Source: Xylophilus sp. GOD-11R (GTDB lineage: Bacteria; Pseudomonadota; Gammaproteobacteria; Burkholderiales; Burkholderiaceae_C). Taken from it: DNA of 64,000 nucleotides. Below, one piece after another: positions 11,596-39,520 of the stretch. Within the stretch, counting starts at the first letter, position 1. Every line of letters starts with the position of its first letter. The stretch covers positions 2,790,001 through 2,854,000 of the forward strand of contig NZ_CP137854.1 of NCBI RefSeq assembly GCF_033546935.1, given 5' to 3'. The position numbers were made by a program, and so were the translations under genes. The notes beneath the pieces were generated by a model, which worked only from the letters and a program-made list of their open reading frames with translations, was not told where the DNA came from and searched no databases.

Positions 11596-11806
11596 GGGGC
11601 GCTACTTTCGTTTTCCTCTGGAAAACCGGAGCTGGTTTAAAACCTTCCGCGACACGGCTGAACCGATTGGCGGATGCGACTGTGGCTGGGGAAGGGCCTT
11701 GGTACGGGCGGCATTGTGCCACCGTTCAAATGGCGGCGAAACGCCACAGCCGCGAGGAAACGACTGAGCGCATAGGCATCGCCATCGGATTCATTCTGTC
11801 GTTTTG

Positions 11807-35655: not shown

Positions 35656-36735
35656 ATGACCCAGAAAATCGCCATCCTGCCGGGCGACGGCATCGGCCCC
35701 GAAATCGTCGCCGAGGCCGTCAAGGTGCTCGACGCGCTGAAGCTCGACCTGTCCCTGGAAACCGCGCCCGTCGGCGGCGCCGCCTACGAGGCCCACGGCC
35801 ATCCGCTGCCGGACTCCACCCTGAACCTCGCCAAGGCTTCCGACGCGATCCTGTTCGGCGCCGTCGGCGACTGGAAGTACGACACGCTCGACCGCCCGCT
35901 GCGCCCCGAGCAGGCCATCCTCGGCCTGCGCAAGCACCTGGGCCTGTTCGCCAACTTCCGCCCGGCCATCTGCTACGAGCAGCTGGTCGCCGCCTCGAGC
36001 CTCAAGCCCGAGCTGGTGGCAGGACTGGACATCCTCATCATCCGCGAGCTCACCGGCGACATCTACTTCGGCCAGCCACGCGGCCGCCGCAGTGCGCCCG
36101 ACGGCCACTTCCCCGGATCGGAGGAAGCCTTCGACACGATGCGCTACAGCCGCCCCGAGATCGAACGCATCGCCCACGTGGCCTTCAAGGCCGCGCAGAA
36201 GCGTGGCCGTCGCGTCACCAGCGTCGACAAGGCCAACGTGCTGGAAACCTTTCAGCTCTGGAAGGATGTGGTCACCGAAGTCGGCAAGCAGTACCCGGAC
36301 GTCGCACTCGACCACATGTACGTCGACAACGCCGCGATGCAGCTGGTGAAGGAGCCCAAGAAGTTCGACGTGGTCGTCACCGGCAACATGTTCGGCGACA
36401 TCCTCTCCGACGCCGCGGCCATGCTCACCGGCTCCATCGGCATGCTGCCTTCGGCGTCGCTCAACGAGCGCGGCCAGGGCCTGTACGAGCCGAGCCACGG
36501 CAGTGCGCCGGACATTGCCGGCAAGGGCGTGGCCAACCCGCTGGCCACCATCCTGAGCGCCGCGATGATGCTGCGCTTCTCGCTGCAGAAGCCCGAAGCC
36601 GCCGACCGCATCGAAGCGGCCGTGCAGAAGGTGCTGGCCCAGGGCCTGCGCACGGCAGACATCTATTCCGAAGGCACCACGCGGGTGAAGACGGTGGAAA
36701 TGGGTGACGCCGTGGTTGCGGCGCTCGCCGGCTGA
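35656..36735 (+). CDS. leuB: 3-isopropylmalate dehydrogenase
   Basis: Oxidises and decarboxylates 3-isopropylmalate to 2-oxoisocaproate. The 359-residue product has the N-terminal GDGIGPEIV, the substrate-binding [10 protein letters not shown] and the NAD motif [14 protein letters not shown]. It is 47 bp after leuD and convergent with the GGDEF gene. Confidence 0.97.
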
Positions 36736-36766: not shown

Positions 36767-38113
36767 TCAGGCCGCTCGATCCAGCCCGGCCGCCACCCGG
36801 TTGCGGCCGGCGCGCTTGGCCGCATAAAGTGCCTGGTCGGCCGAGCGCAGCAGCGACGCGACGTCCGGCAGATCGGTCGCCGGCCGGCAAGCGACCGCAC
36901 CCGCACTCACCGTGACCATGCCCAGTGGCGCCTCCGGATGCGGCAGGCCGAGCGCCTCCACCGCGGCGCGGATGCGGTTGGCCACCAGCCGGGCGCCGTT
37001 CTCGTCGGTCGCCGCCAGCACCACCACGAACTCTTCGCCGCCGTAGCGGCTCACCAGGTCGCCCGGACGCGTGACCTGCTCGGCCAGCGCCTGCGCCACC
37101 GCCCGCAGACAGTCGTCGCCCGCCAGATGGCCCAGGCGGTCGTTATAGGCCTTGAAGTAGTCGACATCGACCATGCAAACCGCCAGCGTCTCGCCTTCGC
37201 GCCGAGCCCGGGCGATCTCGCGCGCCAGGCGCTCGTCGAGATAGCGACGGTTGTAGAGGCCGGTCAAGTAATCCTGACGGGCGTACAGCTCCAACCGCTG
37301 GTTGGCGTCGGTCAGCTGCTGCTCGGCATGCTTGCGCGCGGTGATGTCGATCCAGGCCATCGACATGCCGACGACCGCGCCGAGCGCGTCGCGCAACACG
37401 TGCGGCGTGGCGTAGAACCAGCGGTCCTTCCATTCGAACTCGTGGCTCGGCAGCCGCATGTCCGCGTCCTCGTCGGCGCGGGCGAAATCGCCCTGCAGCT
37501 GACCGATGGCAGGCGGCATCACCTCGGCCACGAGCAGTCCGGCGACCTCGGCCAGCGGACGTTGCAGCAACGCCGCCATCGCCTGGTTGGCCATCACGAT
37601 CGCGCCGGTGCGATCGACCGAGCACAGCACCACCGGCACCGTGTCGTACACCGCTTCGAGCTGCAGCACGCGCTCGCCCAGGGCCGAGATGTCGCGGTCG
37701 ATGCCGCGATAGCCGCGCAGCTGGCCTGTTGCATCGAAAAGCGGGATGCCGCTGGTCTCCAGCACCACGATGCTGCCGTCGGGCCGCTGGTTGCGATTGA
37801 CCAGTCCGGAGAACGGACGCGCGGCCTGCACGATCGCGCCGAAAGCCTCGCCAACGCGGGCGGCTTCTGCCGGCGGCATGAAGTCGAACGGCGTCTTGCC
37901 CAGCACTTCCTCGGGCGGCCGGCCCAGCAGGGCCATGACCATGGCCGAGCAATAGGTATAGCGCCCCTTCGCATCCACCTCCCAGACCCAGTCGCTGTTG
38001 TGATTGAGCAGGTCGTGGAGATGGGCCAGGTCGTCCTGGAGGGCGGGGAAGGTGGGATGGGCGTGAAAGGGGGGGGTCGGGCCGGCGGAATCGGGCATGG
38101 GAGGCCAGGGCAT
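36767..38113 (-). CDS. Diguanylate cyclase with PAS domains
   Basis: The 448-residue cytosolic protein has two or three PAS sensor modules (about 20-270) and a C-terminal GGDEF domain with an intact active site (RYGGEEFVVVL). It should therefore make c-di-GMP. There is no membrane segment, so it senses an internal or diffusible signal. It lies between leuB and asd in the opposite direction, interrupting a gene order otherwise collinear in related bacteria. An RXXD inhibitory site is not obvious before GGEEF. Confidence 0.9.
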   Translation of the reverse strand: MPWPPMPDSAGPTPPFHAHPTFPALQDDLAHLHDLLNHNSDWVWEVDAKGRYTYCSAMVMALLGRPPEEVLGKTPFDFMPPAEAARVGEAFGAIVQAARPFSGLVNRNQRPDGSIVVLETSGIPLFDATGQLRGYRGIDRDISALGERVLQLEAVYDTVPVVLCSVDRTGAIVMANQAMAALLQRPLAEVAGLLVAEVMPPAIGQLQGDFARADEDADMRLPSHEFEWKDRWFYATPHVLRDALGAVVGMSMAWIDITARKHAEQQLTDANQRLELYARQDYLTGLYNRRYLDERLAREIARARREGETLAVCMVDVDYFKAYNDRLGHLAGDDCLRAVAQALAEQVTRPGDLVSRYGGEEFVVVLAATDENGARLVANRIRAAVEALGLPHPEAPLGMVTVSAGAVACRPATDLPDVASLLRSADQALYAAKRAGRNRVAAGLDRAA

Positions 38114-38187
38114 TGAATATCCGGAGCCTCGGAACTATAAGTCCCCATCGGCCGCTTCACGCATGTCCGGGCCATGACAGGATCCGC

Positions 38188-38193
38188 TACAAT
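38188..38193 (+). promoter_or_regulatory. asd: Candidate -10 box of the asd leader transcript
   Basis: TACAAT is a good -10 element; a -35 at the right distance is weak (TGTCCG). Transcription would start near 38200, at or 1-2 bases before the leader ATG, giving a leaderless message. Confidence 0.4.
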
Positions 38194-38201
38194 CCCCAGC
38201 C

Positions 38202-38303
38202 ATGTTTGCCGCCCGCCCGTTCCCCCTGAACACCGCATCTGCCGCCCTGGCAGGCGGGGCCGCGCGCGCAATCACCACCAAAACCACGACCATTAAAGGC
38301 TGA
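38202..38303 (+). CDS. Candidate Thr/Ile leader peptide upstream of asd
   Basis: A 33-codon frame with the C-terminal sequence AITTKTTTIKG: five Thr and two Ile among its last eleven residues. This matches in kind the threonine/isoleucine leader of the E. coli thr operon. It ends 107 bp before asd, whose product leads to threonine, methionine, lysine and isoleucine. Downstream, GCCTGG (38307-38312) and CCTGGC (38329-38334) both can pair with GCCAGGC (38343-38349). The sequence directly shows the biased peptide; ribosome-mediated attenuation is inferred. Confidence 0.6.
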   Translation: MFAARPFPLNTASAALAGGAARAITTKTTTIKG

Positions 38304-38410
38304 ACAGCCTGGTTCGTCGTGCGCCCTCCCTGGCCCAGACGAGCCAGGCGAAATCAGTCCGGTCGAGTTTTTTCGATTCACGATTTCTTCACTGAACGGG
38401 GCGTTTGAAA
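38304..38410 (+). promoter_or_regulatory. asd: Candidate attenuator region of asd
   Basis: Two exclusive pairings share one 3' strand: 38307-38312 with 38344-38349, or 38329-38334 with 38343-38348. A T-run at 38368-38373 follows, but 19 bases after the second hairpin, so it is not a textbook intrinsic terminator. Ribosome release at the leader stop (38301-38303) would cover the first strand and favour the second hairpin. Confidence 0.45.
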
Positions 38411-39520
38411 ATGAGCAAGTTGGTAGGTCTGGTCGGCTGGCGTGGCATGGTCGGCTCGGTGCTGATCGATCGCATGCAGGCAGAAGGTGACTTCGACGTC
38501 ATCGAGCCGGTGTTCTTCTCCACTTCCAACGCGGGCGGCAAGGCCCCGGCGCAGGCGCGGACCCACACCACCCTGCAGGACGCCCACGACGTCGAAGCGC
38601 TGAAGAAGTGCGACATCATCATCACCGCCCAGGGCGGTGACTACACCACCGAGATCTTCCCCAAGCTGCGCGCCGCCGGCTGGACCGGCTACTGGATCGA
38701 CGCCGCCTCCACGCTGCGCATGAAGGACGACGCGGTCATCGTGCTCGACCCGGTCAACGACGACGTGATCCAGCGCGCGCTGGCCAAGGGCGTCAAGAAC
38801 TACATCGGCGGCAACTGCACCAACTCCATCCTGCTGATGGGCCTGGGCGGCCTGTTCAAGCAGGGCCTGGTCGAGTGGGTCAGCTCCATGACCTACCAGG
38901 CGGCCTCCGGCGGCGGCGCCAACCACATGCGTGAACTGCTCAAGGGCATGGGCGTGGTGCACGGCGCGGTGGCCGAAGAGCTGCTCACGCCCTCCTCCGC
39001 CATCCTCGACATCGATCGCAAGGTCGCCGCCACCATCCGCGAAGACGTGCCGACCGAATTCTTCGGCGCGCCGCTGGCCGGCGGCCTCATCCCCTGGATC
39101 GACGCGCAGCTGGACAACGGCCAGTCCAAGGAAGAATGGAAAGGCCAGGCCGAGGTCAACAAGATCCTCGACACGCCCGCCGTCATTCCGGTCGACGGCC
39201 TCTGCGTGCGCATCGGCGCCATGCGCTGCCACAGCCTGGCCCTGACGCTCAAGCTCACGAAGGACCTGCCGCTGGCCGAGATCGAATCCATCATCAAGGC
39301 GGGCAACCCTTGGGTGAAGTGGGTGCCGAACGATCGCGCGGTGACGGTCAAGGAACTCACGCCGGCCGCCATCACCGGCGGGCTCGAAGTCGGCGTCGGA
39401 CGGGTGCGCAAGCTCAATATGGGTCCGGAATACGTGTCGGCCTTCGTCATCGGCGACCAGCTTCTCTGGGGCGCCGCCGAGCCGCTTCGCCGCATGCTGC
39501 GCATCCTGCTGGCGAATTGA
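38411..39520 (+). CDS. asd: Aspartate-semialdehyde dehydrogenase
   Basis: Reduces aspartyl phosphate to aspartate semialdehyde, the branch point to lysine, threonine and methionine. The 369-residue product has the NADP motif [13 protein letters not shown], the catalytic Cys136 in GGNCTNS, and the active-site [14 protein letters not shown] start at ATG 38411; an in-frame TTG two codons upstream is unlikely. It supplies the substrate of Hom (18643-19962). Confidence 0.97.

Follow-up and report, generated by a model that had tools for sequence, protein, structure and literature searches.

The window, by which is meant the whole 64-kb stretch of DNA analysed, contains an asd gene preceded by a short leader ORF on the same strand (Table 1). 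The tail of this ORF, AITTKTTTIKG, holds five Thr, two Ile and two Lys in its last 11 residues. Its stop codon occupies positions 38301-38303 and the asd ATG lies at 38411, which leaves a gap of 107 nt. Re-reading of the sequence bore out the position, the length of 33 codons, the Thr/Ile-biased end and the distance to asd that the initial annotation had reported. Thr, Lys and Ile are all synthesised from the product of Asd.

The composition of the tail is exceptional within the window. The six frames of the whole 64 kb contain 1135 stop-terminated segments of at least 20 codons, two of which carry at least five Thr in the last 11 residues, the leader ORF being one of them; the leader ORF alone combines at least five Thr with at least two Ile. 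At gathering score the sole Rfam match in the window is a SucA RNA motif (RF01070) at 11600-11679 on the minus strand, with 73.7 bits. A search of positions 38150-38450 with an E-value of up to 10 matched no Rfam family.

Table 1 Features of the asd leader region (window positions).
Feature	Position	Strand	Remarks
leuB	35656..36735	+	Without tail in the window; fused to the leader tail in relatives
PAS-GGDEF gene	36767..38113	-	Between leuB and leader in the window
-10-like box TACAAT	38188-38193	+	8 nt upstream of the leader ATG
Leader ORF	38202..38303	+	ATG start, 33 codons, peptide MFAARPFPLNTASAALAGGAARAITTKTTTIKG
Putative sensing codons ITTKTTTIKG (Thr, Ile, Lys)	38271..38300	+	Assigned from tail composition over 111 copies
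S0, Thr codons CCACGACC	38284..38291	+	Complementary to S3
S1, leader end and stop	38287..38303	+	Pairs with S6, antiterminator-like
P1, short GGCU..AGCC hairpin spanning the stop codon	38298..38309	+	94.9% of cells paired, 98 rows
S3, 5' arm of hairpin P2, GCCTGGTTCGTC	38307..38318	+	Alternative partners S0 and asd start region
S4, GCGCCCT and CCTGGC	38321..38334	+	GCGCCCT opposite asd GGGGCGT; CCTGGC is the P2' arm with S5
S5, GACGAGCCAGGC	38338..38349	+	3' arm of both P2 and P2'
S6, TCAGTCCGGTCG	38354..38365	+	Partner of S1
Six-T run	38368..38373	+	Within the loop of a local hairpin predicted when a ribosome sits at the stop
asd ribosome site GGGGCGT and start codon	38398..38413	+	Complementary to S3/S4
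asd, aspartate-semialdehyde dehydrogenase	38411..39520	+	TIGR01745 asd_gamma, E 5.1e-205

Conservation of the tail codons and their frame

Similar tails were found in 28 of the best 80 of 591 asd-relative loci, and more distant ones in L053 and L066. Within the window's family, a covariance model built on 28 copies, the window copy among them, recovered the element from 301 of 399 genomes (277 of the 350 of good quality; 120 of 141 genera); the model contains the tail codons, so its matches lean towards copies that keep them. A total of 118 copies were parsed, comprising the window, 28 loci from the asd-relative set and 89 further family loci, the last drawn from the better-scoring among the matches listed, so that the weaker part of the 301 is left out. 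In all 118 copies, for 28 of them by selection, asd lies 69-159 nt downstream. The plasmid collection, searched for the element, gave no match.

Of the parsed copies 111 are distinct, and their last ten codons comprise 42.3% Thr, 17.4% Lys and 17.3% Ile, with averages of 4.23 Thr and 1.73 Ile per tail. No stop codon occurs across these ten codons in the tail frame, compared with 3 and 75 in the other frames. The check named beforehand, conservation of the Thr/Ile codons and of the frame in relatives, was thus passed by the distinct copies. What is seen in the sequences is a conserved, in-frame short ORF with runs of codons for the products of the pathway, as expected for the attenuator class. 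Lys is present in 110 of the 111 tails, and Met in five. At codons -10 to -4 Lys accounts for 13.1%, compared with 1.3% in the N-terminal part of standalone leaders, an enrichment which shows that the stem at the stop is not the sole explanation of Lys; judged by tail composition, the Lys codons are part of the signal and as regular as those for Ile. The earlier proposal that asd is attenuated by Thr and Ile is therefore supported by sequence, but it omitted Lys from the signal and took the leader to be a separate ORF, while in 26 of the 111 copies the codons form the tail of LeuB.

Twenty chosen family genomes were inspected, 12 without a match to the model and eight with a weak match. Thr/Ile/Lys-rich LeuB tails on a diverged RNA were present in eight of the 20 (L271, L273, L275, L276, L284, L286, L287 and L288), and 301 is therefore a lower bound; the other 12 had no such LeuB tail. 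Two of these 12, L270 and L285, lack the run of Thr codons but retain parts of the S3/S5 RNA, and are possibly decaying copies. True absences of the element within the family also exist. An order-wide sample of 399 genomes gave a match in 30, of which 12 lie inside the family, all with E ≤5.5e-8. No asd was found in the loci of the 18 matches outside the family (L182-L199; E ≥1.6e-4), which were taken as background.

The 330-nt regions upstream of asd were also inspected in 66 loci from 160 genomes, together with L053 (Ralstonia) and L066 (Paraburkholderia). Thr/Ile/Lys-rich tails on a different RNA occur in 3/3 loci of family f14, 2/4 of family f32, L053 and L066, the samples being small; both f32 genomes without such a tail are smaller than 2 Mb. 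One of the 66 loci, L225, belongs to the window's own family. In the remaining 58 the final 14 codons of the best ORF contain at most three Thr. As far as these sequences tell, the kind of tail codons is the only thing that the leaders of the different families have in common.

Two architectures of the leader

A standalone leader ORF is present in 85 of the 111 distinct copies, and in the 26 fused copies the tail is the in-frame C-terminus of LeuB (for example GDAVVAAITKTTIKG), from which the N-terminal part of the standalone leader is absent. Both architectures occur in the window's genus: the window and L083 are standalone and L125, L126, L127 and L134 are fused, LeuB running directly into the leader tail in these four congeners, unlike in the window. 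The element is identical in the Xylophilus ampelinus locus L002 and in L125 of the window's genus. The fused and standalone states need eight changes (bootstrap 7-9) on a LeuB tree built by maximum likelihood from 87 rows, at least four of these changes being forced by well-supported branches. The Asd tree, which is weaker than that of LeuB, needs 13, with at least three forced.

The asd genes of the 111 loci fall into two types, with 66-75% and 80-100% identity to that of the window, and the same leader is found on both. The asd type changes eight times on the LeuB tree, which suggests that asd has been replaced in place. By this comparison of loci, the leader is tied to its genomic position and neither to a single asd type nor to a single leader ORF. 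Movement of the tail in frame onto LeuB indicates that translation of the codons at this site is what is kept, and not a particular peptide. We lean slightly towards the view that leuB acts as the leader ORF for asd in several lineages, that pausing at its last codons sets asd expression, and that the two forms have been repeatedly interchanged. If this is true, one structural gene senses the products of another pathway on behalf of its operon neighbour. LeuB tails would then be unusual in that the C-terminus of an enzyme is kept for its codons rather than for the protein. We know of no precedent for the tail of an enzyme gene acting as a leader.

The standalone leaders share a promoter-like box immediately before the ORF. 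When the leader start was taken as whichever in-frame ATG gives a length closest to 33 codons, TAVAAT or TATAAT lay 6-10 nt 5' of it in 81 of 85 standalone copies, compared with a background of 4 in 1176 windows further upstream. Without any choice of ATG, 84 of the 85 have a TANAAT box at a distance of 70-160 nt upstream of the stop. The first ATG 4-14 nt past this box, sought in any frame, is in the tail frame in 84/84 copies, which are related and hence not 84 independent trials; leaders defined by the box range from 31 to 42 codons. None of the 26 LeuB-fused copies has such a box within 120 nt upstream of the tail. Four Ralstonia/Burkholderia-type leaders show, by eye, a TAGACT or TATATT box at the equivalent position. 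No clear -35 box was seen upstream of the leader, and a simple scan of 38000-38500, which calls promoters only with a -35 hexamer and terminators only where Ts come immediately after a hairpin, returned nothing. The position of the box and the in-frame first ATG support translation of the leader and predict a transcript start that coincides with the ATG or adjoins it; the leader mRNA is thus probably leaderless. In L154 and L170 the leuB stop codon TAG appears inside the leader -10 box (GGCTAGAAT), an overlap in which the end of one gene would serve as the promoter of the next.

RNA pairings and the predicted effect of ribosome position

The RNA of positions 38270-38400 folds to -47.9 kcal/mol, with a z of -4.85 relative to dinucleotide shuffles. 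Hairpin P2 (S3:S5) has 98.8% of cells paired over 98 distinct rows, a figure that, like that for P1, comes from an alignment fitted to the covariance model. Two of its ten pairs have changed on both sides, and this covariation is modest because P2 is nearly invariant. At one S5 position A is found in 13 of 100 rows, all 13 with T in both S3 and S4. The three-way covariation indicates that S5 is matched to two mutually exclusive partners, S3 and S4.

Nine pairings were subjected to a swap test, in which the duplex energy of a copy's own strands is compared with that of strands swapped between species (100 swaps, kinship uncorrected); the values for S0:tail and S4:tail were unusable in the standalone class and are left out. 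Among the standalone copies (n = 85), own energies were -13.09 versus -12.10 (sd 0.17) for S1:S6, -8.94 versus -8.58 (sd 0.10) for S0:S3 and -12.16 versus -11.44 (sd 0.13) for S4:S5, with 0/100 swaps as low in each case. For the fused copies (n = 26) these three pairings were not significant, as low values being reached in 16/100, 53/100 and 80/100 swaps, respectively. S4:SD was the only pairing to pass in the fused class (0/100 as low; 15/100 in the standalone class); neither S1:SD nor S0:SD reached significance. Relative to shuffled tails, S1 had a mean z of -1.45 in 84 standalone copies and 0.02 in 25 fused ones. In the standalone class, swaps and covariation thus reveal mutually exclusive structures, S3:S5 versus S4:S5 and S0:S3.

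Complementarity of S3/S4 to the asd start exceeds that of dinucleotide shuffles, with a mean z of -2.2 in the standalone (n = 85) and -2.86 in the fused class (n = 26). With their own asd start S3/S4 reach -17.0 (standalone) and -19.6 kcal/mol (fused), and with the asd starts of 37 loci without a leader -12.5 and -11.8 kcal/mol, a comparison confounded by kinship since the 37 regions come from other lineages. The S6 region of many standalone relatives is able to pair with ACUG into a hairpin that precedes a U-run. The LeuB-fused copies L143 and L147 have pairable A6 and T6 runs between S5 and asd, just 5' of the ribosome site.

Equilibrium folds were calculated copy by copy, masking the leader as far as an assumed ribosome edge. 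For standalone copies at edge 19, which represents a stall at the early Thr codons, P2 was predicted at 0.75 and the pairing of S3 with the asd start at 0.10. At edge 46, with the ribosome at the stop, the corresponding values were 0.07 and 0.63. P2 was higher in the stalled state in 71 of 85 standalone copies and lower in none. The change takes place between edges 40 and 46 (P2 of 0.73 at 40 and 0.44 at 42) and is footprint-dependent. In fused copies P2 was 0.18 at edge 19 and 0.00 at edge 46, being higher when stalled in 10 of 26, and S3 paired with the asd start was dominant at equilibrium in every ribosome state. When fused transcripts were ended at S5, P2 was 0.81 in the stalled state, 0.23 at edge 46 and 0.86 at edge 42; the difference between the last two means that the outcome hangs on the exact footprint. 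In the window the minimum-energy fold switches, P2 and S1:S6 giving way to P2' and a GCGCCCU:GGGGCGU duplex that covers the asd ribosome site. A switch of structure with ribosome position is likely on the basis of these models.

In the standalone class a U-run was recognised in 74 of 85 copies. Their terminator probability was 0.15 with no ribosome, 0.22 when the ribosome stalled at the first Thr, 0.46 when it had reached the stop and 0.73 when it stalled at the last Thr. Early and late stalls are therefore predicted to differ (0.22 versus 0.73), and an untranslated leader, with P2 at 0.69 and the terminator at 0.15, is predicted to behave like a stalled one. For the fused class the terminator probability was low, with means of 0.08 to 0.32 (23 of 26 copies). 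The local terminator of the window had a probability of 0 to 0.22, and no hairpin there is directly followed by Ts. Accessibility of the asd start at edges 19 and 46 was 0.46 and 0.48 in standalone and 0.44 and 0.46 in fused copies, so that no change is predicted, because other pairings cover the start in the stalled state. Likewise, the accessibility of the asd ribosome site, taken as a read-out, did not differ between ribosome states. The unchanged start accessibility counts against closure of the asd start as the output, which the models leave as possible; in the standalone relatives transcription termination is the output that they best support.

Proposed mechanism and comparison with known systems

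Codon and frame conservation, the position of the box, the competing pairings and the LeuB fusions, all of which are evident in the sequences, make it quite probable in our judgement that the element is a ribosome-mediated attenuator of asd whose signal is the charging state of tRNA-Thr, and probably also of tRNA-Lys and tRNA-Ile. From them we infer a transcript start, a stall, a direction of switching, a kind of output and an effect on Asd, as follows. Transcription would begin at or beside the leader ATG. When Thr, Lys or Ile is short, the ribosome would wait on the early Thr/Lys/Ile codons, leaving S1 and S3 free, and S3:S5 (P2) and S1:S6 would form, with asd on. When the amino acids are plentiful, the ribosome would reach the stop and cover S1 and the first bases of S3, and P2 would be replaced by P2' (S4:S5). 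S6, no longer held by S1, would then make a terminator in those standalone relatives that have a U-run, turning asd off; additionally or alternatively, S3/S4 may pair with the asd ribosome site to the same effect. In LeuB-fused copies the ribosome finishing leuB would do the sensing. Several predictions weigh against this scheme: the asd start is no more accessible in one ribosome state than in the other, a stall at the last Thr would terminate, a leader free of ribosomes folds as if stalled, the switch depends on the assumed footprint, P2 switches in 10 of 26 fused copies, and the window's local terminator probability is at most 0.22; the modest covariation of P2 does so too.

The same attenuator might have termination as its sole output, in which case the match between S3/S4 and the asd start would have no function. 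This alternative deserves serious weight, although we consider it less likely than not: the S6 hairpin with ACUG before the U-run, with terminator probabilities that vary with ribosome position over the 74 standalone copies in which a U-run was recognised, and the unchanged accessibility of the asd start both speak for it, but a hairpin with Ts immediately after it is missing from the window and from many fused copies, terminator means are low in the fused class, where S1:S6 is absent, and it is in this class that complementarity to the asd start is strongest.

Two further readings were considered. The strong and nearly invariant RNA core (S3, S5) would suit an element bound by a metabolite or a protein, with the Thr/Lys/Ile ORF merely overlapping it; this is improbable, as the amino acids and the frame are kept though the RNA, the leader length and the host ORF change, and no Rfam family matches the site. 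The occurrence of similar codons in Ralstonia, Paraburkholderia, f32 and f14, where the RNA differs, was counted in favour of an attenuator. That the ORF encodes a functional small protein, or is spurious, is more improbable still. An MFAARPF-like N-terminal stretch does recur among standalone copies, but selection on the N-terminal part, sought by pN/pS, gave values near 1 (0.86-1.03 for codons 2-23 of 45 leaders of 33 codons; in the tail pN/pS is confounded by the overlapping RNA), so that the peptide itself is probably not the thing kept. This part is also absent from LeuB-fused copies, and between families the kind of tail codons is all that is common. The leader peptide had no match in Pfam or NCBIfam up to an E-value of 1.

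If the site is a ribosome-mediated attenuator, it would explain the control, across a large bacterial family, of an enzyme common to lysine, threonine, isoleucine and methionine synthesis, with three of these four products sensed by a single leader. The exchange between a leaderless mini-gene and an enzyme tail would make the evolution of leader peptides directly observable, and a conserved sequence with two natural architectures offers a model for control by ribosome position at the level of transcription versus translation. No description of an attenuator in an asd leader of this group was found in the literature searched, which consisted of titles and the starts of abstracts, with most subscription journals and the survey of proteobacterial attenuators by Vitreschak et al. 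(2004) outside its scope. A term search of the main texts of PMC2965389, PMC3766115 and PMC1262725 found no occurrence of 'asd' in these parts of the papers.

Judged by its codons and pairings, the asd leader would work like the amino-acid attenuators yet stands outside the Rfam Thr_leader family. The likeness to the enteric thr attenuator (RF00506) seen in the initial annotation holds for the Thr/Ile-rich leader before a gene of the aspartate branch, and extends to alternative RNA pairings over the leader end, but not to the RNA itself: the RF00506 covariance model matched neither the window at gathering score nor positions 38150-38450 at an E-value of up to 10. The enteric leader precedes thrABC, whereas the target here is asd in all 118 parsed copies, Lys codons belong to the signal, the start is predicted to be leaderless, and pairing with the asd ribosome site is possible.

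Other systems share single aspects of the proposed mechanism. Multivalent attenuators of the ilvGMEDA type likewise use one leader for several end products of a branched pathway, which here would be Thr, Lys and Ile, upstream of asd. The trpL attenuator of Sinorhizobium is leaderless, and resembles the predicted asd leader in that its ORF lies at or near the 5' end of the transcript; the amino acids sensed, the target, the RNA and the lineage are different. In long upstream ORFs of the SecM/MifM type, as is predicted for the LeuB-fused copies, the last codons control the downstream gene, but LeuB is a metabolic enzyme and the stall proposed here would occur at hungry codons rather than at an arrest peptide.
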